The notes under the pieces were generated by a model. It did not search any database. It worked only from the letters and a program-made list of their open reading frames with translations, and had not been told where the DNA came from. From an uncultured Clostridia bacterium (GTDB taxonomy: Bacteria > Bacillota > Clostridia > TANB77 > CAG-508), in the NCBI GenBank assembly GCA_944386165.1, contig CALXAA010000014.1:1-42200 (forward strand): 42,200 nt of DNA, in the 5' to 3' direction. The position numbers and the translations under genes were made by a program. Shown here one piece after another: positions 2,605 to 29,539 of the stretch (its first letter is position 1; each line of letters starts with the position of its first letter).

Positions 2605-2952
2605 ATGATAGTTAAAAGAGGAGATATGTTTTATGCAGATTTAAGTCCAGTTGTAGGCTCAGAACAAGGTGGAGTTAGACCTGTTTTAATAATACAAAAT
2701 GATTTAGGAAACAAGTATAGTCCAACTGTAATAACTGCAGCGATAACCTCTCAAACTAATAAAACAAAATTACCAACACATATAGAAATTGGAGAAAACA
2801 CAAGTGGACTTAAGAGTAATTCTGTTGTATTAACAGAACAAATTCGTACAATAGATAAAAGTAGATTAAAGGAAAAAATAGGCCATATTGATGATATTAG
2901 CATATTAAATAAATTAAATGATGCTTTAGAAGTTAGCTTTGGCTTAGAATAA
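2605..2952 (+). CDS. MazF/PemK-family endoribonuclease toxin (EndoA-like)
   Basis: A 115-aa protein with the full PemK/MazF pattern: RGDMFYADLSPVVGSEQGGVRPVLI at the N-terminus with the conserved catalytic-site Arg in VRPV, then TVITAAITSQ, PTHIEI and the SVVLTEQIRTIDKSRL block. It matches chromosomal EndoA (NdoA) of Bacillota, which cuts single-stranded mRNA at short U-rich motifs. Start: ATG 2605 has AAGGAG eight bases upstream. An in-frame GTG at 2596 overlaps the ribosome site and is rejected. No MazE-type antitoxin gene lies in the 92 bases upstream or directly downstream, whereas B. subtilis endoA follows its antitoxin gene and alr. Either the antitoxin is elsewhere or the toxin is controlled differently. 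Confidence 0.9.
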   Translation: MIVKRGDMFYADLSPVVGSEQGGVRPVLIIQNDLGNKYSPTVITAAITSQTNKTKLPTHIEIGENTSGLKSNSVVLTEQIRTIDKSRLKEKIGHIDDISILNKLNDALEVSFGLE

Positions 2953-3052
2953 TAAATACATCTCTTTTTATTTAAAAAATATATTCAGATAGAGTAACTA
3001 AAATATAAAATGTAGTATAACAATATAAAAGAAATAAAATTAATTAAAGTAC

Positions 3053-3081
3053 TTGATTTTTTTTATCTAAAACAATATAAT
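3053..3081 (+). promoter_or_regulatory. Sigma-A promoter of the HD-GYP gene
   Basis: TTGATT (3053-3058), 17 bp, TATAAT (3076-3081), about 30 bases before the coding start. Confidence 0.75.
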
Positions 3082-3113
3082 GTCGATATAAATAAAAAGA
3101 GGTGTGATTGTAA

Positions 3114-4184
3114 ATGAGAAAAGCAATTCAAGAGCAATTAAAAACAGAAAACAAAGAAAAATATAAAATAATAGCTATAGATGATGAAGCAGGAATAATA
3201 GATTCATTATCTATATTTTTAAAAAGAACAAACTATGATTTTGTTGGAATAACAGATCCTATAGAAGGAATTGAAAGAATAAGAAATGAGCACTTTGATT
3301 TATTATTATTAGATTTCATGATGACACCATTACATGGTGATGATGTTGTTGAAGAAATAAGAAAATTCAATAAAGAATTATATATTTTATTGTTAACTGG
3401 TCATAAAGATTTAGCTCCACCATTGGAGACAATCAAAAGACTTGATATACAAGGATATTGTGAAAAAAGTGATAAATTTGAACAATTGCTTTTATTAATT
3501 GAGTCTGGAATTAAATCAATAGAACAAATGCATGAAATTAAAAGAATTAATGAAATGCTTAAAGAATCAAAAGAACAATTAGAAAGAGCTTATTTAGATA
3601 CAATTCAATCTCTAAGGTATGCTGTTGAAGCAAAGGATCCATATACAAGAGGCCATTCAGATAGAGTTTCTGAATATGCTGTTTTAATAGGTAGAAAAAT
3701 GGGATTATCAGAAGATGAAATAAAAACTTTACAAATTGGAGGATTATTTCATGATATTGGAAAAATAGGTGTTCCAGATACTATTTTACAAAAGGAAGCT
3801 AAATTAACAGATGATGAATATTCTCAAATAAAAAATCACCCATCAATAGGAGCACATATTCTTGGAGAAGCAGAAGCTTTTAAAGATATAATTCCTATTG
3901 TAAAATACCATCATGAAAGATTTGATGGTAGAGGATATCCTTCAAGATTAAGTGGTGAAAAAATTCCACTATTAGCTAGAATTACTGCTGTTGCAGATAC
4001 TTTTGATGCAATGACAAGTAAAAGAAGTTATAGAAATGCTTTAGATATACAATATGTAAAAGAAGAAATTGAGAGATGTAAGGGTACTCAATTCGATCCA
4101 AAAATAGCAGAGGTCTTTTTGGAAATATTGAATAATGATTTTGGCAAAATACAAGAAATTCAAAAAAAATATATTAGTAATTAA
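3114..4184 (+). CDS. Response regulator with HD-GYP phosphodiesterase domain
   Basis: A 356-aa two-domain signalling protein. A receiver domain (about 18-140) has the acidic pair in IDDE and the phospho-acceptor Asp67 in LLLDFMM. A short coiled coil (about 140-160) leads into an HD-GYP domain with HD at 213-214 (HDIGKIG), the following HH and the GYP triad at 274-276 (GRGYP). All metal ligands of the family appear intact, so it should hydrolyse cyclic di-GMP (or cGAMP-type signals) in response to phosphorylation, like RpfG. No partner histidine kinase is adjacent. It stands alone with its own promoter and a terminator shared with the convergent tex gene. Ribosome site GAGGTG precedes ATG 3114. 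Confidence 0.93.
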   Translation: MRKAIQEQLKTENKEKYKIIAIDDEAGIIDSLSIFLKRTNYDFVGITDPIEGIERIRNEHFDLLLLDFMMTPLHGDDVVEEIRKFNKELYILLLTGHKDLAPPLETIKRLDIQGYCEKSDKFEQLLLLIESGIKSIEQMHEIKRINEMLKESKEQLERAYLDTIQSLRYAVEAKDPYTRGHSDRVSEYAVLIGRKMGLSEDEIKTLQIGGLFHDIGKIGVPDTILQKEAKLTDDEYSQIKNHPSIGAHILGEAEAFKDIIPIVKYHHERFDGRGYPSRLSGEKIPLLARITAVADTFDAMTSKRSYRNALDIQYVKEEIERCKGTQFDPKIAEVFLEILNNDFGKIQEIQKKYISN

Positions 4185-19989: not shown

Positions 19990-20967
19990 ATTTTAAAAAA
20001 GAAGCTAAAATACTATACGAAAGAGAGCTGTAAATTTTTTACCGTAATGGCGTTAGGATTAGGCTTAATATTAGCGATTATTTTATTAAAATATAAGCCA
20101 ACATATGTAGTAAGTTTGTCAGGAGAACAAATAGGCTATGTAGATAGTGCAACAGAATTAAATAATAAAATTCAATCAGAAATAATAAACATGGAAGGAA
20201 ATAACATAGATTTTGTTGCATTGGATAATATGCCAAGTTATGAAATTAAATTAGTAGAAAAAAGTCAAGAAACAAACGAAGATGAAATATTACTTGCATT
20301 AAAAGAAGAAGCAACTGTAATGTATAAATATTATGCAGTAATATTAAATAATGAAACAGTAAGCTGTGTAGACAATATGGAAGAAGCAGAGCAAGCTGTA
20401 AATCAGATAAAAGAAGAACATAAAGACGATTCTATTGAATTAGATTTAGTTGTTACTACAAATTATACTGAAAATATAGATGAAATAGGAATAGAATCAG
20501 TTTCAGTTGCAAAAGAAGAAGTTGAACAAAAAGTTGAAGTTTTAATAGAAGAAGATAAGAAAACAAAACTTCCTTCAATTAATGGTGTACTTTTAGCAGT
20601 TTCACCTGTTAGTGGATATGTTAGCTCAAGATATGGTTCTGTAAGTAGTGTTAGATCTGGAGCACATACTGGAACAGATATAGCTTGTGCTTTTGGAACA
20701 CCCATTAAAGCTGTAGCTGATGGAACAGTAATATTTTCTGCGTACAATGGTTCTTATGGAAACCTTATTAAAATAGATCATGGCAATGGTGTAGAAACAT
20801 GGTATGCTCATTGTAATAAGTTATATAAGGATGTTGGAGAAAAAGTAAAAGCAGGAGATAAGATTGCAGAAGTAGGATTAACAGGAAATACTACTGGTGC
20901 ACATTTACACTTAGAAATAAGAGTAAATGGAAAAACAATAAATCCACAAAAATATTTATATAAATAA
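19990..20967 (+). CDS. Membrane-anchored M23 (LytM) peptidoglycan endopeptidase
   Basis: A 325-aa cell-wall hydrolase, counted from an inferred AUU start. Residues 1-19 are basic, 20-36 form a membrane helix, about 40-190 are an extracellular alpha/beta region rich in Glu, and the C-terminal M23 domain has the zinc ligands His226 and Asp230 (HTGTD) and the HLHLE motif (His305, His307). All are intact, so it should cut peptide cross-links. Start choice: the first ATG (20047) has no ribosome site and sits at the edge of the helix. AAGGAGAGG at 19975-19983 is instead well placed for ATT 19990, whose reading supplies the expected basic anchor KKKLKYYTKESCK. No ATG, GTG or TTG lies between. Confidence 0.88.
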   Translation: MLKKKLKYYTKESCKFFTVMALGLGLILAIILLKYKPTYVVSLSGEQIGYVDSATELNNKIQSEIINMEGNNIDFVALDNMPSYEIKLVEKSQETNEDEILLALKEEATVMYKYYAVILNNETVSCVDNMEEAEQAVNQIKEEHKDDSIELDLVVTTNYTENIDEIGIESVSVAKEEVEQKVEVLIEEDKKTKLPSINGVLLAVSPVSGYVSSRYGSVSSVRSGAHTGTDIACAFGTPIKAVADGTVIFSAYNGSYGNLIKIDHGNGVETWYAHCNKLYKDVGEKVKAGDKIAEVGLTGNTTGAHLHLEIRVNGKTINPQKYLYK

Positions 20968-21006
20968 ACAACACTATAGCAATTAATTTTGCTATAGTGT
21001 TGTTTT
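20967..21006. terminator. Bidirectional terminator, 16-bp perfect stem
   Basis: AACAACACTATAGCAA (20967-20982) pairs with TTGCTATAGTGTTGTT (20989-21004). It ends both the M23 gene and the convergent 21010-21498 gene. Confidence 0.9.
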
Positions 21007-21007
21007 G

Positions 21008-21541
21008 CTTTAACCACCTGTAAACTGAAACTGTTCAATTATGCTCCCTTCAGGAACATAAATATTGTAAGAAATTCTTGAAGGCTTTTGTTTTATGTCA
21101 TGTTCGGAAGTTTTCCGATCAATTCCATTGCAGTCATAGAAACTTGTAATTTTTAAATAAGGTACTTCATCATTTTCAATGTAGTATATTGAGGCTTCAT
21201 TAACGGGAATTTCATATTGTTTAATTCCACCATCAGTTAGCTGATAAAACACATTGTAAAATTTTTGGTTATCTAATTCACCATTAGCAGAGTAAAAAAC
21301 AAAAAATCCAGATGCATTATATTGTCCTGTAATGTTTTTGGTGTCAACAGCTGAAACTAATTGATAAGTTTCAGTAGTTGAATGTTCTGTGTAACATTCT
21401 AATGGTCCACAAAAATAATACGGTACACAAAAAACTACAACATTGAATGCAAACAGTAATAGTCCGATTTTACCAAGCATCGATTCAAATTCATCCATAA
21501 TGATTTCTCCTTTGCTTTTTAGATGTTTTCGATGGTTAAAA
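21008..21541. repeat. Weak inverted repeat around the 21010-21498 gene
   Basis: Bases 21008-21018 (over the stop codon) and 21531-21541 (5' UTR) can pair over 11 consecutive positions including two G-U pairs. This is weaker than at the other three orphan genes. Confidence 0.4.
21010..21498 (-). CDS. Hypothetical membrane-anchored protein, 162 aa
   Basis: Not recognised. MDEFESMLGKIG is followed by one membrane helix (about residues 12-32), then FCGPLECYTEHSTTETYQLVSAVD and a mostly beta outer domain. That domain contains ITGQYNASGFFVFYSANGELDN, an aromatic-rich block, EIPVNEASIYYIENDEVPYLKI, a basic stretch and a C-terminal PEGSIIEQFQFTGG. The pattern resembles phage-type or accessory envelope proteins of Bacillota with a single anchor, but no family is claimed. 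ATG 21498 is chosen because AAGGAG lies eight bases upstream; a longer in-frame reading to 21582 runs into the promoter. It is a lone gene with its own promoter and terminator. Confidence 0.7.
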   Translation of the reverse strand: MDEFESMLGKIGLLLFAFNVVVFCVPYYFCGPLECYTEHSTTETYQLVSAVDTKNITGQYNASGFFVFYSANGELDNQKFYNVFYQLTDGGIKQYEIPVNEASIYYIENDEVPYLKITSFYDCNGIDRKTSEHDIKQKPSRISYNIYVPEGSIIEQFQFTGG

Positions 21542-21572
21542 ATATTCAAAGTGTTCATTTGAACATATAAGT

Positions 21573-21601
21573 ATATTAACATAATTTTATAAATAAGTCA
21601 A
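21573..21601 (-). promoter_or_regulatory. Sigma-A promoter of the 21498 gene
   Basis: Minus strand: TTGACT (21601-21596), 17 bp, TAATAT (21578-21573). A palindrome GTTCAAATGAAC lies just downstream. Confidence 0.65.
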
Positions 21602-21691
21602 TGTGAATACATTAATTTCCATACTAAATTTCATGTTTTATAAAGAAATTTATATAAACAAAAATACTTATTATATTTTTTATAAAAAGTA

Positions 21692-21720
21692 TTGACAAAA
21701 AAGATAAATGATAATATAAT
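21692..21720 (+). promoter_or_regulatory. Consensus promoter of the nucleotide-biosynthesis operon
   Basis: TTGACA (21692-21697), 17 bp, TATAAT (21715-21720). The palindrome GTAGCTAC (21727-21734) falls at the expected transcript start and could be an operator. It drives the six genes up to the terminator at 27574. Confidence 0.85.
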
Positions 21721-21774
21721 CCAATTGTAGCTACTTAATATAAAAAAAACAATAAGTAAAAGGAGGAAATATTT

Positions 21775-22467
21775 ATGAACAATAAAACAGCATTAATAAC
21801 AGGATGTAATAGAGGGCTTGGAGAAGGAATTAGAAATATTTTATTAAAACAAGGATACACAGTAATAGGGTTAAATAGAACATTAAGTAATCAAAAATTA
21901 AAAAATTATATTGAAATAAAATGTGATATTTCAAATAGTGAAAATATTGAAAAAGCTAAAGAAAAGTTTAATAAAAAAATAGACTTATTGATAATAAATG
22001 CAGGAATAAGAAGATTTGAAAAAATAGAAAGTATGAAAAAACAAGACTGGGAAGATTCAGTAAATATCAATTTAAATGGAGCATTTTACACTTTAAATTC
22101 ATTTATAGAAAATGTAAAAAAATCTAAAGGAGATATCATCATAATAGGTTCACATTCAGAAAAATATACATTTGAAGAAGGAGGAGCATATTGTTCAACC
22201 AAACTAGCATTAAGGGGAATGGCAGAGTGTTTAAGAGAAGAACTAAGATATGAAGATGTAAGAATATCATATTTATCACTAGGAAGTATAAAAAATCGAA
22301 ATCACAACATATATGAAGAATGGAAATTGATGCCAGAAGAAGTAGGAATAACAATATTAAATATAATAAATTTACCTAAAAGAATTTTTATCCCTTATTT
22401 AGATATAAGACCATTACAACCCCTAAAAGATGAGAAGAAAGGAATTGAAAAATTACAATATGTTTAA
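21775..22467 (+). CDS. Short-chain dehydrogenase/reductase (PenB/CofA-like role)
   Basis: A 230-aa cytosolic SDR. The NAD(P)-binding motif is TGCNRGLG (about 9-16), followed by NAG in IINAGIRR and the catalytic set Ser126 (IIGSHSEKY), Tyr139 and Lys143 (YCSTK). It is short and compact, and the region after SLGSIKNR is truncated relative to fatty-acid SDRs. It is the first gene of the operon, with AGGAGG seven bases before the ATG. SDRs PenB and CofA reduce the 8-keto group in pentostatin and coformycin biosynthesis. Given the HisG/PurC/HisA context, I infer the same role here. The SDR family call is secure; the substrate is inference. Confidence 0.88.
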   Translation: MNNKTALITGCNRGLGEGIRNILLKQGYTVIGLNRTLSNQKLKNYIEIKCDISNSENIEKAKEKFNKKIDLLIINAGIRRFEKIESMKKQDWEDSVNINLNGAFYTLNSFIENVKKSKGDIIIIGSHSEKYTFEEGGAYCSTKLALRGMAECLREELRYEDVRISYLSLGSIKNRNHNIYEEWKLMPEEVGITILNIINLPKRIFIPYLDIRPLQPLKDEKKGIEKLQYV

Positions 22468-23485
22468 TATAGAATGCAATTATCAAACAAAAATAAATAA
22501 AGAAAATGAATTTATAGCAAGAGTTAAAACAAACCAAAAAGTTTGTATAAAGACTATAAATGCTTATGGAGATAAGTTTAAAGACTTAAATGAATTAATG
22601 ACATTAATAAACTGTAAAGATGGAAAAACACATCATCATCCATTAACAGGACCAATCTATATAAATGAAGCAATACCTGGAGATGTATTAAAAGTACATA
22701 TATATAAAATAGAAGTAAAAGAAATGGCTCAAAGCCTTTCTAAAACTGCAGGAATAGAACCATTAACAAATCTTGGAATTGCTGAAAGAATTCCAGTTAT
22801 TTCACAGAAATGTTCTGAAAGAGAAATTAGTTATACTAATGGAATAAATCTACCATATAAACCAATGATAGGAATGATTGCAGTTTCTTCTGCTATAGAA
22901 AATATAAAAACTGGTCATGCACAAAAAAGAAATGGAGGAAATCTTGATATTCCGTTTGTTACAGAAGAAACAGATATATATCTTCCGGTAGACATAGAAG
23001 GTGCTGGTTTGTATTTAGGAGATGTACACGGATTACAAGGATATGGTGAATTAAGTGGAATAGCTATGGAAGCTTCTAGTAAAGTAATTATAGATGTTGA
23101 AGTATTAAAACCAAGAAAAAAACTAGACAATATTATTATTATAGGAAAAGAACCATTTTCTAAAAAAGAATGTATAGGAATAGTTGGAATAGGAAGCAAA
23201 ATGAATTTAGAAGAAGCTATTTTAGATGCTTTTCAAGGAAGTTATAATTTGCTACAACAATGTATTCCTACGATGTCTCAAAACATGGTAAAATCACTTA
23301 TAACATTAATAGGAAATTCGTTTAATGGTCAGGCATTTTCAAAAACATCAGAATCTACAAATATTATTGTAATTTCAAAAGATGATTTACAAAAAATAAC
23401 AAAAAATAAATATGAGAAACTATCAAAAGAAATAGAAAAAATTTTATTTGAAGAGAAAAATAATAGAAAGGAAAATAAAAAATGA
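22460..23485 (+). CDS. Acetamidase/formamidase family hydrolase
   Basis: A 341-aa FmdA/AmdA-type protein. Family features are GPIYINEAIPGDVLKVHI near residue 70, AQKRNGGNLDIPFVTEETDIYLPVDIEGAGLYLGDVHGLQGYGELSG in the middle, and the later ASSKVIIDVEVLKP. These enzymes hydrolyse short amides to acid and ammonia. Start: ATG 22460 overlaps the stop of the SDR gene, which suggests reinitiation; ATG 22430 and TTG 22445 are in-frame alternatives with poor ribosome spacing. It overlaps the next gene by four bases (ATGA). No amidase is known to be needed in the coformycin route, so its job here is open: it may act on a formamide or amidine intermediate or on a carboxamide. Written positions use the 22460 start. 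Confidence 0.85.
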   Translation: MFNIECNYQTKINKENEFIARVKTNQKVCIKTINAYGDKFKDLNELMTLINCKDGKTHHHPLTGPIYINEAIPGDVLKVHIYKIEVKEMAQSLSKTAGIEPLTNLGIAERIPVISQKCSEREISYTNGINLPYKPMIGMIAVSSAIENIKTGHAQKRNGGNLDIPFVTEETDIYLPVDIEGAGLYLGDVHGLQGYGELSGIAMEASSKVIIDVEVLKPRKKLDNIIIIGKEPFSKKECIGIVGIGSKMNLEEAILDAFQGSYNLLQQCIPTMSQNMVKSLITLIGNSFNGQAFSKTSESTNIIVISKDDLQKITKNKYEKLSKEIEKILFEEKNNRKENKK

Positions 23486-24651
23486 GAGAAAAACCAGTAA
23501 TAAAATTAGGTGCAGGAAAAGGAAAACTTTTACCAGTTTTACAACAATATTTAAAACAATTAGAAATACCAGAAATAGAAAATTCAAGAAAATTAGTACA
23601 TAGATTTGAAAAAGATAATTATATATTGGAAGTTACATTATTAAGATGGGAAGATATAAAAAGATATGCACATGAATTTGATATGATTATATATGGAAGT
23701 GATCAATGGTTAGAAAGTGGTCATAAATCAATGATTTCATTACAATATTTTGAACAAAAAAATTGTAGAATAAGTTTAATGGTAAGAAAAGAACAAAAAG
23801 ATATGCCAATTCAATATTTTAGAGAAAGAAAAGTTGCAACAAGTTATACTAATTTAGCAAAAGAATATTTAGGAATAAAAGAAGGAAATATAGTAAAAAT
23901 TTCTGGAAGTGTAGAAGCGGCAGTAACATTAGGGTGGGCTGATAGTATATTTGATGTCATAGAAACGGGAAAGAGTGCAGAAGATAATGGATTAGTAGAA
24001 TATAAACCTTTTGTAAAATTTGGAGCAATATTAGCAACAAAAAAGGCAGAAAAAATACCTTTGTTTGAAGATGTGGGACTAATTAAAAAACAGAAAAAAG
24101 GAAAAATAATAGCATTTGATGGATTAGATGGTTCTGGAAAATCAACACTTGCAAAATATTTAGTGCAAAATCCAATACTAAATTCAAATTCGACAGTATT
24201 AATTACGCCATATTCAGGTTCAATAGGAAGTCAAGCAAAATCATTATGGAATGCAGGTAAATATTTTGAATGGGCAACAATTATTGGAAAAAATCATTGG
24301 AAAGCACCAGAGAATGTAAATAGTATATTTGATAGGTCAATTTTAACATTTTTGACAGATTTGATTGATGAAGGATTACCAGAAGAAAAAATATTAGAAG
24401 CAATAATGTCATGGAAACCATTACCAGATATATTATTTTTCTGTGATATTCCACCACAAATATCATTAGAAAGAAGAACACAAGATAAAGATCAATTTGA
24501 TGAATTAAAATCATTAGAAAAATATTATGTTTTATATAAAAAGGCTATTAATTTTGTAGAAACACACAATTTAGTGAAAATTATAAATTTAGATACAAAT
24601 ATGCCAATAGAAGACTGTATAAAACAAGTGGAAAAAAGTATAAAAAAATAG
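23482..24651 (+). CDS. HisG (ATP phosphoribosyltransferase) - thymidylate-kinase-like fusion
   Basis: A 389-aa two-domain enzyme. Residues 1-195 are a short-form HisG domain: IKLGAGKGKLLPVLQQ, VTLLRWEDIKRYAHEFDMIIYG, KVATSYTNLAKEYL and the PRPP-binding stretch SGSVEAAVTLGWADSIFDVIETG (about 141-163). HisG joins ATP and PRPP to give N1-phosphoribosyl-ATP. Residues 208-389 are a P-loop kinase of thymidylate-kinase type, with DGLDGSGKST at 213-222, DRS near 280 and the lid-like ERRTQDKDQFDE. Short-form HisG needs HisZ in histidine synthesis, and no hisZ is here. PenA of the pentostatin cluster is also a HisG homologue. The kinase could phosphorylate the product nucleotide or provide resistance; that is inference. 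Four-base overlap with the upstream gene implies coupling. Confidence 0.87.
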   Translation: MREKPVIKLGAGKGKLLPVLQQYLKQLEIPEIENSRKLVHRFEKDNYILEVTLLRWEDIKRYAHEFDMIIYGSDQWLESGHKSMISLQYFEQKNCRISLMVRKEQKDMPIQYFRERKVATSYTNLAKEYLGIKEGNIVKISGSVEAAVTLGWADSIFDVIETGKSAEDNGLVEYKPFVKFGAILATKKAEKIPLFEDVGLIKKQKKGKIIAFDGLDGSGKSTLAKYLVQNPILNSNSTVLITPYSGSIGSQAKSLWNAGKYFEWATIIGKNHWKAPENVNSIFDRSILTFLTDLIDEGLPEEKILEAIMSWKPLPDILFFCDIPPQISLERRTQDKDQFDELKSLEKYYVLYKKAINFVETHNLVKIINLDTNMPIEDCIKQVEKSIKK

Positions 24652-24672
24652 AAAAGGAGAAAAAGTGGAAAA

Positions 24673-25827
24673 ATGTATAAAAAAATAGTAGTTGAAGGAA
24701 AATCAAAAAAAATATATGAAATAAATGAAAATACATATTTTATGTGTTTCAAACCACATCTAAGATCAATAACTTCAAAAAGAGAAGAAAATATAAAAGA
24801 AACTGATAAAGAAAGATTAATAAGTAATATGTATTTTATGAATCTGTTGGAAAAAAATGGGATAAAAACACAAATAAAAAGTAATAAAATTGAAGAAATT
24901 GATGGGGAAAAAGGTATATTAGTTGAAAAGGTAAAAACAATACCAATTGAATTCATATGCAGATATTATGCTGCAGGAAGTATTGTACGATTATATCCAA
25001 GTTTGGTAAAAGAAGGTCAAAAATTAAAAACACCATTATACAAATTTGATTTAAAACAAGATATAAAAGTTGCAGGAGTTGATGATCCAACTTTAAATGA
25101 AAATTATATTATAGGTTTAGAAATTTTAACCAAAGAACAATTTGAAAAAGCTAAAACAATATTAATAAAAGTAGGAGAAATAATAAGAAAAGATTTAGAA
25201 AGAAAAAGTATAAAATTAATAGATATGAAAATGGAAATGGGATTTGATCAAAATGGAGATATAATAGTAATTGATGAAATTTCACAAGATTGCATTAGAG
25301 CAAATGATATGCAAACAGGAAAATCACTTACAAAAGATACATTTAGACAATTAAAAAGTGATGAAGTGGTACTTGAATGTTATAAAGAATTTAATAGTCG
25401 ATTAAGAAATTTAGAGTACATATATGAATATATAAGAGATAATAATTCAATCACAAAAGAAATGTCAAATACAAAGAAAATAATACAAGAATTAATCCAA
25501 AAAGAACAAAATACAATAGATTTTTGCAATAAGAAAATTGAGGCAGAAAAACAAGAAATTGAAGAAGCAAAAATAGGAAAACATTTTCATGAAAATATGA
25601 CTAAAAGAAAAATTTTAGTAAATGAAATATCACAATATATATATTGGAAAATAATAGTTGCTGTTTCAAATTACAAATATTTTAACGTAGAAAAAGAAAT
25701 TGTTAAAATTTTAAAAGATATAGATATTACAAAAATTGGAGAAAAAGAACCAATAACAGTAGAAGAAATAATTCAACATGAAATAGAAAAAATGAAAGAA
25801 AAAGAATATTTAAAAGAGGTGATATAG
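24673..25827 (+). CDS. SAICAR-synthetase (PurC) - HisE-like fusion (PenC/CofB-like role)
   Basis: A 384-aa fusion. Residues 1-240 are a PurC domain: VVEGKSKKIYEI, VKTIPIEFICRYYAAGSIVRL, GVDDPTLNENYIIGLEI, IKLIDMKMEMGFDQNGDIIVIDEIS and DCIRANDMQTGKSLTKD. The usual FKDDATAFNGEK loop is replaced (FKPHLRSITSKREEN) and SPDTCR reads SQDCIR, so it is not a housekeeping SAICAR synthetase. Residues 255-384 are helical and resemble the HisE/MazG fold, with acidic KIEAEKQEIEEAKIG and NEISQYIYWKIIVAVSN. HisE removes pyrophosphate from phosphoribosyl-ATP. In coformycin biosynthesis the PurC homologue CofB converts the histidine branch-point intermediate to 8-ketocoformycin phosphate. The PurC call is strong, HisE moderate, function inferred. 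Confidence 0.83.
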   Translation: MYKKIVVEGKSKKIYEINENTYFMCFKPHLRSITSKREENIKETDKERLISNMYFMNLLEKNGIKTQIKSNKIEEIDGEKGILVEKVKTIPIEFICRYYAAGSIVRLYPSLVKEGQKLKTPLYKFDLKQDIKVAGVDDPTLNENYIIGLEILTKEQFEKAKTILIKVGEIIRKDLERKSIKLIDMKMEMGFDQNGDIIVIDEISQDCIRANDMQTGKSLTKDTFRQLKSDEVVLECYKEFNSRLRNLEYIYEYIRDNNSITKEMSNTKKIIQELIQKEQNTIDFCNKKIEAEKQEIEEAKIGKHFHENMTKRKILVNEISQYIYWKIIVAVSNYKYFNVEKEIVKILKDIDITKIGEKEPITVEEIIQHEIEKMKEKEYLKEVI

Positions 25828-25829
25828 TT

Positions 25830-26789
25830 ATGATAATACCTTCAATTGATATAATGGGAGGAAAAGCCGTTCAATTAATACAAGGAAAAGAAAAGGTTTA
25901 CGAGAATGAGAATATAGATGATATGCTAGAACAATATAGATTATTTCCAGAGATAAATGTAATAGACATTGATTCTGCAATGGGAAAAGGAGATAATAAA
26001 GAGCTAATAAAAAAGATGTGCCAAAAAGTAGATTGTAACATAGGAGGAGGAATTCGAAGTATTGAACTAGCTGAAGAATATATTGAAGCAGGAGCTAAAA
26101 GAATAATAATAGGAACGAAAGCAAGTAAAGAATTTCTTGAACAACTTCCAAAAGAAAAAGTCATTGTAGCACTTGATACAAAGAATGGAAAATTAGCAAC
26201 ACATGGATGGCAAAAATTAGAAAATGAAGATATATACAAAAAAATGCAGGAACTTGAAAGTTATTGTGAAAAATATTTGATTACTAATGTAAATGTTGAA
26301 GGTTTAAATTCAGGAACAGATTTGCATTTTTTTCAAACATTAGTTGGAAAAACAAAAAATGATATTATGGTAGCAGGAGGAATAACAACATTAGAAGAAA
26401 TAAAGGCAATACATGAATTAGGATTTAACCAAGTTCTTGGAATGGCAATAACATCAGGAAAATTAAATTTAGTAGATTGTTATATAAAAATTATGAATTT
26501 TCAAAAACAATATGGATTAATTCCAACAATTGTACAAGACATTGAAACAAAAGAAGTATTAATGCTTGCATACTCAAATGAAGATAGTATAAAAAAGACA
26601 TTCGAATTAAAATTAGCAACATATTATAGTAGAAGTAGAAAACAATTATGGACAAAAGGAGAAAAAAGTGGTAATATACAAAAAATAGAAAAAATTTATT
26701 TAGACTGTGACACAGATACATTATTATTTTTGGTAAAACAAAAGGGAGTAGCATGCCACAGAAATAAGAGAACCTGTTTTGATGTGTAG
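25830..26789 (+). CDS. HisA-HisI fusion (ProFAR isomerase and PR-AMP cyclohydrolase)
   Basis: A 319-aa bifunctional enzyme. Residues 1-225 form a HisA TIM barrel: IPSIDIMGGKAVQL with Asp7, NIGGGIRSIELAEEYIEAGAKRIIIGT, VALDTKNG with Asp116 followed by THGWQ (HisA rather than HisF), and VAGGITTLEEI. Residues 228-319 are HisI: GLIPTIVQDIETKEVLMLAYSNEDS, YYSRSRKQLWTKGEKSGN, the Mg site D292-C-D-T-D296 and zinc Cys309/Cys316. Together they convert phosphoribosyl-AMP to ProFAR and then PRFAR. HisI is usually fused to HisE, so a HisA-HisI fusion is unusual. All catalytic residues appear intact. It starts two bases after the PurC-HisE stop. Confidence 0.9.
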   Translation: MIIPSIDIMGGKAVQLIQGKEKVYENENIDDMLEQYRLFPEINVIDIDSAMGKGDNKELIKKMCQKVDCNIGGGIRSIELAEEYIEAGAKRIIIGTKASKEFLEQLPKEKVIVALDTKNGKLATHGWQKLENEDIYKKMQELESYCEKYLITNVNVEGLNSGTDLHFFQTLVGKTKNDIMVAGGITTLEEIKAIHELGFNQVLGMAITSGKLNLVDCYIKIMNFQKQYGLIPTIVQDIETKEVLMLAYSNEDSIKKTFELKLATYYSRSRKQLWTKGEKSGNIQKIEKIYLDCDTDTLLFLVKQKGVACHRNKRTCFDV

Positions 26790-26805
26790 AAAGGAAAGTT
26801 TAAGA

Positions 26806-27561
26806 ATGAATGTCAAAATTAATGTGGTTATATTTACTACAGATAATAAAGAAAGAAAAGATGTAAGAAAATTAAGAGAAAAAAAATTACAAATAGTTTT
26901 AGATGAAAACAATAATTTACCAACATTTGATATTAATAATAAAGAAGAAGCTAAAATTACAGCATGTAATAAAATAATAGAAATGTTTGGAATTTCAAAA
27001 TTTTATATAGAACAATTATATACTTGGGCAGATCCTCAATATTATGATGAAACTCATGAAATATTAATTACATATCTAGTAATAATAAACAAAAATAATA
27101 TTCAAAAAAATATAGAAAATTTAAGTTTTTATGATATAACAATTAAAGATGAAGATGTAAATTTTCAAAAAGTTACTCTAGAAAGTGAAAAGAAAAATAT
27201 AGAATATAAAATAGAAACTTATACAAGAAAAGAAAGGGATAGTATAGAATATATGAATAAATTATTTGGAGATTCAGAAATCTGTGAACTAAATGCAATT
27301 ATAATTCATACAGGTTTAAAAAGATTGAGAAATAGAATTGATAATACAAATATTGCTTTTAGTTTTTTAGAAGAAGAATTTACTATTTCAGAATTACAAC
27401 AAGTTTATGAAATAATTTTGGATAAAAAATTAGTATCAGCTAATTTTAGAAAAAAGATTGAACCTATGATAAAAAAGACAGACCAAATAGTTAAAGAATC
27501 AGCATATAGACCATCTGCTAGATATAAATTTAATGAAAACTATTTGAAAAATTGGGTATAA
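26806..27561 (+). CDS. NrtR-like regulator, degenerate Nudix plus winged helix
   Basis: A 251-aa protein with the layout of NrtR-type regulators. The N-terminal Nudix-fold part has FYIEQLYTWADPQYYDETHEILITYLVII (about residues 63-91). The C-terminal winged-helix domain is ELNAIIIHTGLKRLRNRIDN, FTISELQQVYEIILDKKLVSANFRKKI and SARYKFNENY. The Nudix box is not conserved: the region expected to hold GX5EX7REUXEEXGU reads as a plain Lys/Glu helix, so hydrolysis is unlikely and ligand sensing more likely. ATG 26806 is chosen because AAAGGA lies ten bases upstream; readings from 26779/26782 start inside the HisI coding end. As last gene of the operon it may regulate it by binding a product nucleotide. 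That role is inference. Confidence 0.78.
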   Translation: MNVKINVVIFTTDNKERKDVRKLREKKLQIVLDENNNLPTFDINNKEEAKITACNKIIEMFGISKFYIEQLYTWADPQYYDETHEILITYLVIINKNNIQKNIENLSFYDITIKDEDVNFQKVTLESEKKNIEYKIETYTRKERDSIEYMNKLFGDSEICELNAIIIHTGLKRLRNRIDNTNIAFSFLEEEFTISELQQVYEIILDKKLVSANFRKKIEPMIKKTDQIVKESAYRPSARYKFNENYLKNWV

Positions 27562-27573
27562 AATAAAAGTCAG

Positions 27574-27608
27574 AGAGAGTTTCAATGTATGAAACTCTCT
27601 TGAATTTT
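27574..27608. terminator. Bidirectional terminator, operon and glmS
   Basis: AGAGAGTTTCA (27574-27584) pairs perfectly with TGAAACTCTCT (27590-27600) over a 5-base loop, with TGAATTTTTC after it. Confidence 0.88.
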
Positions 27609-27609
27609 T

Positions 27610-29451
27610 CTATTCAACTGTTACAGATTTTGCTAAATTTCTTGGTTTATCAACATCTAATCCTTTTTCTTTAGAAATGTAGTATGAAAGTAATTGTAAA
27701 GGAATAATTGAAAGTATTGGTGATAATAAAACATTTACATCAGGAACAGTAATAATAGTATCAAAATTATTAGCAGGTAATTCTTGGTTTGTAATAACTA
27801 ATGTTTTTGCACCACGAGTTATAACTTCTTGAATATTACTAATTGTTTTTTCAACTAATTTAGGGTCAGTAATAATACTTATAACTGTAATTCCATTTTC
27901 AATTAAAGCAATTGGACCATGTTTTAATTCACCTGCAGCATATGCTTCTGAATGAATATAAGAAATTTCTTTTAACTTTAAAGAAGCTTCTAATGCTGTA
28001 TTATAATCAACACCTCTTCCTAAGAAAAATACATCTTTTTCTTGATATATTTTTTTTGCAAATTCTTGAATTCTTTTTGAGCTTTTTAATGCAATTTCTA
28101 TTTTGTTTGGAAGGTCTAATAATTCCTTTTTCAAATCTTTTAATTCAAAAACTGAAGCTGTTTCTAATATTTCTGCAAAATATATAGCTAATAAACTTAA
28201 TAAAACTATTTGAGAAGTATATGCTTTTGTTGAAGCCACAGCTATTTCTGGACCTGCATGTGTATAAATAGAATAGTCTGCTTCTCTTGTAATAGAACTG
28301 CCAATTACATTAGAAACTGCAAGAGTTGTAGCACCTTTTGATTTTGATAATTTTAATGCTGCAATTGTATCTGCTGTTTCTCCAGATTGTGAAATGAAAA
28401 TACATAAAGTATTTTTATCTATAATAGGATCTCTATATCTAAATTCTGAAGCAATATCAACTGTTACAGGAATTCTGCAAAGTTTTTCAATTGCAATTTT
28501 TCCAGATAGTCCTGCATGCATTGCAGTGCCACAGGCTATAATATATATTTTGTTAATACTTGTAAGAAATTTTTTTGTAAATTTTAAATCATCAAAATTA
28601 CATTGCTCATTTTCTGGTAAGCGAGAGCCTATAGTTTCTCTTATAGCAGTTGGTTGTTCATGTATTTCTTTTAACATATAATCTTCAAAACCATTTTTAT
28701 CAGCAGAACTTGCAGACCATTCAATATTTTTAACATTTTTATTAATTTTATTTAAATCAATATCATAAAAATCTACTTTATCTCTTGATAGAACAGCAAA
28801 TTCATTATCATTTAAAAGATAAAAATCTTTAGTAAATGATAAAATCGCAGGTATATCAGAAGATACATAACATTCTCCATCACCTTTTCCGATTACAAGA
28901 GGACTGTCTTTTCTAACAACAATCATATTATCTGGCATATATTTTGAAATTACTTGAATTGCATAACTTCCTTTTAAATCTTTGCATGTATGTTGAACAG
29001 CTCTTAAAATTCTATCTTTATCATTGTTTTTATCTTTAGTGTAATAATAATGTATCAAATTTGGGATAACTTCAGTATCTGTTTGAGAATAAAAAGTATA
29101 TCCATTTTTCTCCAAAAATTCTTTTAAATCACTATAATTTTCTATGATTCCATTATGAACAACAGCAAAATTTTTACTGTTATCTAAATGAGGGTGAGAG
29201 TTTTCTTTAGATGGTTTTCCATGGGTAGCCCATCTAGTATGAGCAATTCCTATTGTTCCTTGTAAATCATCAATACCTTTTAAATTATATAAATTTTTTA
29301 CTCTTCCTTTATCTTTCATAACAGAAAGACCATCTTTTTCAATTGTAGCAATTCCTGCTGAATCATAACCTCTGTATTCTAGTCTTAAAAGACCATTAAT
29401 TAATATAGGTGTAGCTTTTTTGCTTCCTATATATCCAATAATTCCACACAT
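27610..29451 (-). CDS. glmS: Glutamine-fructose-6-phosphate aminotransferase GlmS
   Basis: A 613-aa enzyme making glucosamine-6-phosphate for cell-wall synthesis. It begins MCGIIGYIG with the N-terminal nucleophile Cys, has the glutaminase motifs HTRWATHGKPS and HNGIIENY, then two SIS sugar-binding domains (ACGTAMHAGLSGK, FISQSGETADTIAALK, ASTKAYTSQ) and the conserved end KPRNLAKSVTVE. Length is normal. AGGAGG precedes the ATG. The leader carries a glmS ribozyme, so the mRNA is cleaved when the product accumulates. Confidence 0.97.
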   Translation of the reverse strand: MCGIIGYIGSKKATPILINGLLRLEYRGYDSAGIATIEKDGLSVMKDKGRVKNLYNLKGIDDLQGTIGIAHTRWATHGKPSKENSHPHLDNSKNFAVVHNGIIENYSDLKEFLEKNGYTFYSQTDTEVIPNLIHYYYTKDKNNDKDRILRAVQHTCKDLKGSYAIQVISKYMPDNMIVVRKDSPLVIGKGDGECYVSSDIPAILSFTKDFYLLNDNEFAVLSRDKVDFYDIDLNKINKNVKNIEWSASSADKNGFEDYMLKEIHEQPTAIRETIGSRLPENEQCNFDDLKFTKKFLTSINKIYIIACGTAMHAGLSGKIAIEKLCRIPVTVDIASEFRYRDPIIDKNTLCIFISQSGETADTIAALKLSKSKGATTLAVSNVIGSSITREADYSIYTHAGPEIAVASTKAYTSQIVLLSLLAIYFAEILETASVFELKDLKKELLDLPNKIEIALKSSKRIQEFAKKIYQEKDVFFLGRGVDYNTALEASLKLKEISYIHSEAYAAGELKHGPIALIENGITVISIITDPKLVEKTISNIQEVITRGAKTLVITNQELPANNFDTIITVPDVNVLLSPILSIIPLQLLSYYISKEKGLDVDKPRNLAKSVTVE

Positions 29452-29539
29452 TGTGAATACCTCCTAAAAAATTTTAAATTGTGGAATTGAAATATACAGC
29501 TTATGCATTAATGTCTGTTATAATATTTCTACTATTTTT

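Follow-up and report, generated by a model that had tools for sequence, protein, structure and literature searches.

The operon and its control region

We describe here an operon of six co-directional genes (21775-27561, forward strand) in a 42,200-nucleotide stretch of DNA from an uncultured Clostridia bacterium (assembly GCA_944386165.1, contig CALXAA010000014.1; hereafter the window), which lies between one promoter and one terminator-like hairpin and almost certainly encodes a dedicated, conserved nucleotide pathway. A first-pass annotation had read these genes as a self-contained coformycin/pentostatin-like pathway, and its six-gene observation is real, the enzyme set, the promoter and the hairpin all being confirmed. 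Homologues of HisG, of a short-chain dehydrogenase/reductase (SDR) and of SAICAR (phosphoribosylaminoimidazole-succinocarboxamide) synthetase, PurC, stand together in one cluster both in the window and in its relatives. The best single reading, to which we give a roughly even chance, is that ATP and phosphoribosyl pyrophosphate (PRPP) are converted by the operon's enzymes into a 1,3-diazepine nucleotide of the coformycin type, which probably inhibits enzymes that deaminate adenosine or AMP. The features are as follows.

21665..21691: Operator 1, imperfect 27-bp palindrome TACTTA-N15-AAAGTA whose end abuts the -35 box (motif search)
21692..21720, forward: promoter TTGACA-17-TATAAT, 12/12 consensus matches
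21732..21758: Operator 2, 27-bp palindrome TACTTA-N15-TAAGTA directly past the -10 box (motif search)
21775..22467, forward: SDR-family oxidoreductase, TGxxxGxG and YxxxK present; predicted final reduction
22460..23485, forward: acetamidase/formamidase-family protein (open reading frame, ORF, open from 22430); predicted amide hydrolysis
23482..24087, forward: HisG domain, short form, PRPP loop intact
24097..24651, forward: thymidylate-kinase-fold nucleotide kinase domain, fused to HisG
24673..25407, forward: PurC (SAICAR synthetase) homologue, loop replaced by KPHLRSIT
25408..25827, forward: HisE-like domain fused to PurC, three Glu retained, Asp replaced by Gln
25830..26477, forward: HisA domain, E. 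coli D7 and D129 retained, D176 replaced by Glu
26484..26789, forward: HisI domain fused to HisA, DCDxD, CH and CF residues retained
26806..27561, forward: NrtR-type winged-helix regulator; Pfam names only the winged-helix part, not the N-terminal sensor part
27573..27601, both strands: terminator-like hairpin

Promoter-like sites are, by count, no more numerous than in shuffled sequence, and an Rfam scan of 20000-29500 returned no family at threshold. The histidine-type domains keep much of their catalytic equipment: the PRPP loop of HisG, the metal residues of HisI (three operon sequences), the two aspartates of HisA (five sequences) and the three acidic residues of the HisE-like domain (three sequences).

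Missing partners in the host genome

In gene-absence searches of the window's own genome (G000; 1.68 Mb, 99.7% complete), for which the control genomes were positive in 14, 14, 13, 14 and 14 of 14 cases, PF00977 (HisA/HisF) has a single match, the operon HisA, so that there is no HisF; HisD was not found either, and no individual searches were made for HisB, HisC or HisH. PurC also has one match, inside the operon, and neither the PurM/PurL (AIRS) family nor PurA was found. Within a relatives sample of 30 genomes, G000 included, HisD occurs in one, which is listed with 6% contamination, and the PurM/PurL family in four. A histidine biosynthesis operon would call for HisF and HisD, and a de novo purine SAICAR synthetase for PurM/PurL partners in the genome; G000 offers none of these, and no host pathway was found for the operon's histidine- and purine-type enzymes to serve. 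With no other HisA/HisF or PurC present, the earlier claim that the enzymes are dedicated and self-contained is upheld. The first-pass annotation had also named two simpler outcomes, a dispersed histidine pathway and an ordinary PurC serving a complete purine operon that has no other purC, and both fall away because HisF, HisD, PurM/PurL, PurA and a second PurC are absent from G000.

The same genome encodes an 828-residue protein with a central adenosine-deaminase domain (L057:559-3045, G000:C18), which occurs in five of the ten operon genomes introduced below. A tie to the operon was dropped, since 47 of 191 order genomes match this protein and five operon genomes (G138, G114, G043, G071 and G204) lack it.

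A PurC altered on its substrate side

In a tree of 46 PurC sequences, comprising 17 from type A systems and 3 from type B systems (defined in the next section) and 26 others, the 20 operon PurCs form one clade with support of 100/100, within which type A (95/82) and type B (99/93) separate; the program flagged long branches, and the odd PurCs L014 and L042 are nearest to the operon clade. The operon PurC thus lies outside the ordinary SAICAR synthetases compared, as the first-pass annotation had supposed. All 20 operon PurCs keep E. coli K11, E90, R94, S100, K123, D129, D175, K177 and E179, as well as D191, E192, R199, K211 and R215, residues to which we ascribe ATP, metal and phosphate roles. 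An ordinary SAICAR synthetase is expected to have D or N as residue 30 (E. coli numbering) together with A as residue 34, whereas the operon PurCs have P at 30 (20/20, against D in 24/26 others) and S at 34 (20/20, against A in 23/26 others); in the printed alignment rows both changes fall within KPHLRS, and P195 is replaced by Q in 20/20. The replaced loop, otherwise nearly invariant, is presumably at the aspartate/CAIR (carboxyaminoimidazole ribonucleotide) site. Judged by these residues, the PurC is altered on its substrate side.

A further short PurC-like lineage comprises L042:9983-10672 and L014:1441-2136, the former next to genes that, read by eye, look xanthine-dehydrogenase-like and FdhD-like. 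In phage and plasmid records alike, every PurC match is below 60% identity. Nonomuraea gerenzanensis gave a single PurC match, at 22% identity, and so no AdeA/CofB was obtained from there.

Two types of system among relatives

Operon-type PurC (at least 51% identity) is present in 6 of the 191 genomes of an order-level survey, and the HisG-kinase, at a cut-off of E 1e-20, in 1 of the 398 genomes of a phylum-level survey, namely G000 alone. A named genome collection yielded seven loci in uncultured Clostridia metagenome-assembled genomes (MAGs), together with three other PurCs of 25-30% identity. In public metagenomes, the best 120 of 220 PurC matches are all at least 64% identical to the query, and the best 120 of 199 HisG-kinase matches all at least 69%. 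Some MAG names point to animal guts.

Ten genomes with such systems were examined, seven of type A (G000 and L035-L040) and three of type B (loci L041, L064 and L065; genomes G043, G071 and G114); L035 is the G074 system, L038 that of G138 and L041 that of G043. In type A the order is SDR, amidase, HisG-kinase, PurC, HisE-like, HisA-HisI and NrtR, so that the gene order which the first-pass annotation had proposed to look for elsewhere does recur, in L035-L040; L038 is truncated where its contig stops, the genome's HisA-HisI and NrtR being found on a further contig, L066. Type B consists of an SDR, an amidase-HisG-kinase triple fusion and PurC. When the type B fusion was compared with metagenomes, 36 of 46 matches were the triple fusion and 6 matched the amidase family without HisG, and the metagenome PurC matches listed include three HisG-kinase-PurC fusions (P0045, P0102 and P0114). 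Four kinds of fusion join the system's domains: amidase-HisG-kinase, HisG-kinase-PurC, PurC-HisE and HisA-HisI.

In two different species one additional base interrupts the SDR gene at a shared position (L039:7530-7552 and L040:7257-7294), where CTT-CGG-A and ATT-CGG-A, respectively, give a +1 shift, past which the downstream part is still 73% identical to the window. The codon CGG is absent from chosen genes (0/6301 codons in ten genes of the window, 0/3246 in L040 and 0/3535 in L039); in non-overlapping ORFs of at least 100 codons, with the shift sites counted, it occurs at 5/12484, 6/5620 and 2/5876, respectively. A programmed frameshift at a rare codon is possible, as is parallel decay.

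Histidine-type genes in other settings were also seen. In Monoglobus pectinilyticus (L071, NZ_OY725736.1), another member of the Clostridia, a hisZ-annotated gene that also matches HisG is followed by adjacent hisA and hisIE, and hisF/H/B/C/D are not annotated within the 13 kb seen. Mobilizable plasmids of two Nocardia species (L060 and L061) carry HisG near a dGTP triphosphohydrolase; they were set aside as relatives, the HisG being full-length and no PurC or SDR being annotated beside it.

Predicted regulation and a possible link to PurA

The regulator has an NrtR winged-helix domain (PF21906, 65.7 bits), and its N-terminal part has no Pfam Nudix match, the motifs there being read by eye only. 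The two operators of the window, which the first-pass annotation had not noticed, start 67 bp apart (21665 and 21732) and flank the promoter. Allowing at most one mismatch, for which random sequence gives a mean of 0.65 hits per 42 kb (20 random sequences), the pair with the same 67-bp spacing is found in the window, L038, L039 and L040, a single copy in L035, L036 and L037, and none in L041, L064 and L065; L039 has a third match within NrtR. The bare number of operator motifs barely exceeds that of a reversed control across the ten genomes (24 against 20) and equals it within G000 (4 against 4), and only their pairing and position are telling.

In L036-L040 the operator precedes an extra first gene, which encodes a divergent PurA in L038 (about 2816-4105) and L039 (5695-6999); in L036, L037 and L040 the gene product is instead a P-loop protein. 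A CYTH-like reading of the latter was rejected, as Pfam gives a weak P-loop match only and the L036 protein had no good match among solved structures. A divergent PurA also stands directly behind PurC in the type B locus L065 (59-1351), and the three PurA copies have common replaced loops, one of which is presumably the aspartate loop. With loops replaced in PurA and PurC alike, two aspartate-using purine enzymes look re-tooled. Furthermore, in the type B genome G114 an operator pair, again 67 bp apart, lies before a PurA operon (L074, G114:C2:68000-86000; 12733-8070, minus strand), in which PurA is followed, as read by eye, by PurB, a PLC-like protein, an NrtR piece (134-residue ORF) and an RdgB-like protein. 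This pair may tie the regulator to adenylate synthesis.

A proposed route to a coformycin-type nucleotide

We infer the reactions, the product and the regulation from the gene set, as follows. HisG would couple PRPP to an adenine nucleotide, with the fused kinase perhaps feeding HisG or phosphorylating the product, and the HisE-like, HisI and HisA domains would carry the HisG product to N'-[(5'-phosphoribulosyl)formimino]-5-aminoimidazole-4-carboxamide ribonucleotide (PRFAR) or a close relative. In coformycin, C8 corresponds to the imidazole carboxamide carbon of PRFAR and is bonded to C1 of the ribulosyl moiety. The carboxylate that SAICAR synthetases activate is at this very position, where PRFAR bears an amide. 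The operon's amidase, which in type B is joined to HisG, would remove this mismatch, a possible chemical fit that goes beyond the first-pass annotation. The amidase would hydrolyse the imidazole carboxamide to a carboxylate, and the altered PurC could use ATP to convert the latter into an acyl phosphate; a ribulosyl carbon might then attack in the place of aspartate, forming a seven-membered ring. Loss of the C2-C5 sugar part would leave an 8-keto compound, whose ring ketone the SDR would reduce. The NrtR-type protein is predicted to repress the operon through the two palindromes and to sense a nucleotide. A wider picture, which we consider possible and somewhat doubtful, is that small-genome Clostridia, probably living in guts and lacking purine synthesis (in this case even PurA), make a coformycin-type nucleotide by a complete, fused pathway. 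As a transition-state inhibitor it would protect scarce adenine compounds against deamination, inside the cell or around it, the amidase unmasking the carboxylate for carbon-carbon closure by a re-tooled PurC.

Evidence against this route and alternative explanations

Several observations weigh against a coformycin-type product, foremost the composition of type B. HisI is present in 7/7 type A genomes and 0/3 type B genomes; HisA/HisF has no match in G071, a partial, sub-threshold match in G043 and one partial match in G114 (27.1 bits against a cut-off of 23.6, covering profile positions 102-222 only). As similar partial matches occur beside true HisA in G203, G205 and G206, those of G043 and G114 are probably other TIM barrels. 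The PRFAR-forming steps are thus represented by HisA and HisI in seven of the ten genomes, while three have no HisI and no convincing HisA, and PRFAR could probably not be made there by known enzymes. The window operon contains no transporter or phosphatase; the HisA D176 (Glu in five sequences) and an aspartate of the HisE-like domain (Gln in three) are changed; the SDR gene is frame-shifted in L039 and L040; and the structural model has some of its lowest confidence around the replaced PurC loop (residues 31-40, mean predicted local distance difference test score 55). The amidase, the kinase and the divergent PurA of L038, L039 and L065 fall outside the pen/cof sets as far as the available accounts describe them. 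The window PurC and SDR are likened to PenC/CofB and PenB/CofA by described enzyme set, not by sequence. It is mainly type B, together with this likeness by description only, that holds the coformycin-type product to an even chance. Of the earlier interpretation, the enzyme set, its dedication and its self-containment stand, whereas the simple PRFAR reading is opposed by the three core systems without HisI and convincing HisA.

The same type B systems favour a dedicated pathway to another HisG-derived nucleotide (a signal, a cofactor or an adenylate salvage compound), in which the altered PurC would join another amine or form another ring and no diazepine would arise. That a nucleotide kinase and a PurA with a replaced aspartate loop belong to the system also speaks for such a pathway, as does the operator pair before the purA-purB operon of G114, from which the regulon may concern adenylate metabolism. 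Type A, on the other hand, has homologues of exactly the four enzymes that lead from ATP to PRFAR, together with PurC and SDR, which matches coformycin/pentostatin logic; we give this other nucleotide a serious chance, somewhat below even. A shunt that recycles PRFAR or ATP to 5-aminoimidazole-4-carboxamide ribonucleotide or free imidazole nucleotides, a scavenging by-pass with no special end product, would account for HisG-E-I-A without HisF and HisD and for the adjoining amidase-family hydrolase, but it leaves the SDR and the loop-changed PurC unexplained in a genome without PurM/PurL or PurA, and is improbable. That PurC is the genome's ordinary SAICAR synthetase in a mixed operon fits its being the sole PurC of G000, yet no PurM/PurL family is present there, the clade is separate, the loop is replaced in 20/20, and G043 encodes another PurC with 31% identity to the query; we hold this to be highly improbable. 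Least probable of all is a dispersed histidine pathway: the HisG, HisA, HisI and HisE-like domains are indeed histidine-type, but HisF and HisD are missing from the host and the only HisD of the relatives sample is in its contaminated genome. A histidine remnant and an ordinary PurC are thus rejected. An anti-phage system was also rejected, PADLOC giving weak P-loop matches to the HisG-kinase only and none to the other five proteins.

Significance and comparison with known systems

If a coformycin-type product is confirmed, inhibitors of the adenosine-deaminase type, which the accounts available to us place so far in actinomycetes and fungi, would also come from uncultured Clostridia, whose operon proteins recur in public metagenomes; in animal guts, to which some MAG names point, adenosine signalling might be affected. 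For the ring-closing step, still unsolved, the operon would then provide a compact gene set, with a role in that step for an amidase, which to our knowledge is not part of the known actinomycete sets. Even with another product, a conserved operon combining half of the histidine pathway with a re-tooled PurC, in a host where neither parent pathway was found, would represent a new nucleotide pathway.

Among the matches listed from the literature on coformycin in Clostridia or a gut-made deaminase inhibitor, this system is not described. Its regulator resembles NrtR and AraR in its winged-helix domain and promoter palindromes, and differs in an N-terminal sensor that Pfam does not name as Nudix and in a target operon other than NAD genes. 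Histidine biosynthesis (hisG-E-I-A) shares the same four enzymes by homology, whereas here hisF and hisD are absent, the short HisG has no HisZ in the operon, and residues of the HisE-like and HisA domains are changed. Cns3 of Cordyceps militaris (PMC8719641, PMC8869658), the fusion protein responsible for pentostatin formation there, likewise joins a nucleotide kinase to HisG, but with the kinase N-terminal, the reverse of the window order; the cns cluster, as described there, contains an oxidoreductase along with a phosphohydrolase and a transporter, and no PurC or HisE/I/A. The adechlorin clusters ade/ada (Nonomuraea, Streptosporangiaceae) have, like the window, recruited homologues of HisG (AdeC/AdeL), HisA (AdeK) and SAICAR synthetase (AdeA), and AdeC/AdeL fail to complement E. 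coli hisG (PMC13055916); the part of that account available mentions no dedicated HisI/HisE, and the six window genes include no halogenase. In pentostatin biosynthesis, penA, penB and penC encode HisG, SDR and SAICAR-synthetase homologues, the function of PenC being unclear in the portion of the source at hand (PMC12648386). The pentostatin (penABC, Streptomyces antibioticus) and coformycin (cof, S. kaniharaensis; mac, Micromonospora) systems differ from the window in its dedicated, fused HisE-like, HisI and HisA domains, its added amidase-family protein and fused kinase, its lack of recognised companion nucleoside genes and its host, a small-genome Clostridia lineage. They nevertheless unite, as the window does, homologues of HisG, SDR and SAICAR synthetase, and they start from ATP/PRPP-type substrates, as predicted for the window operon.

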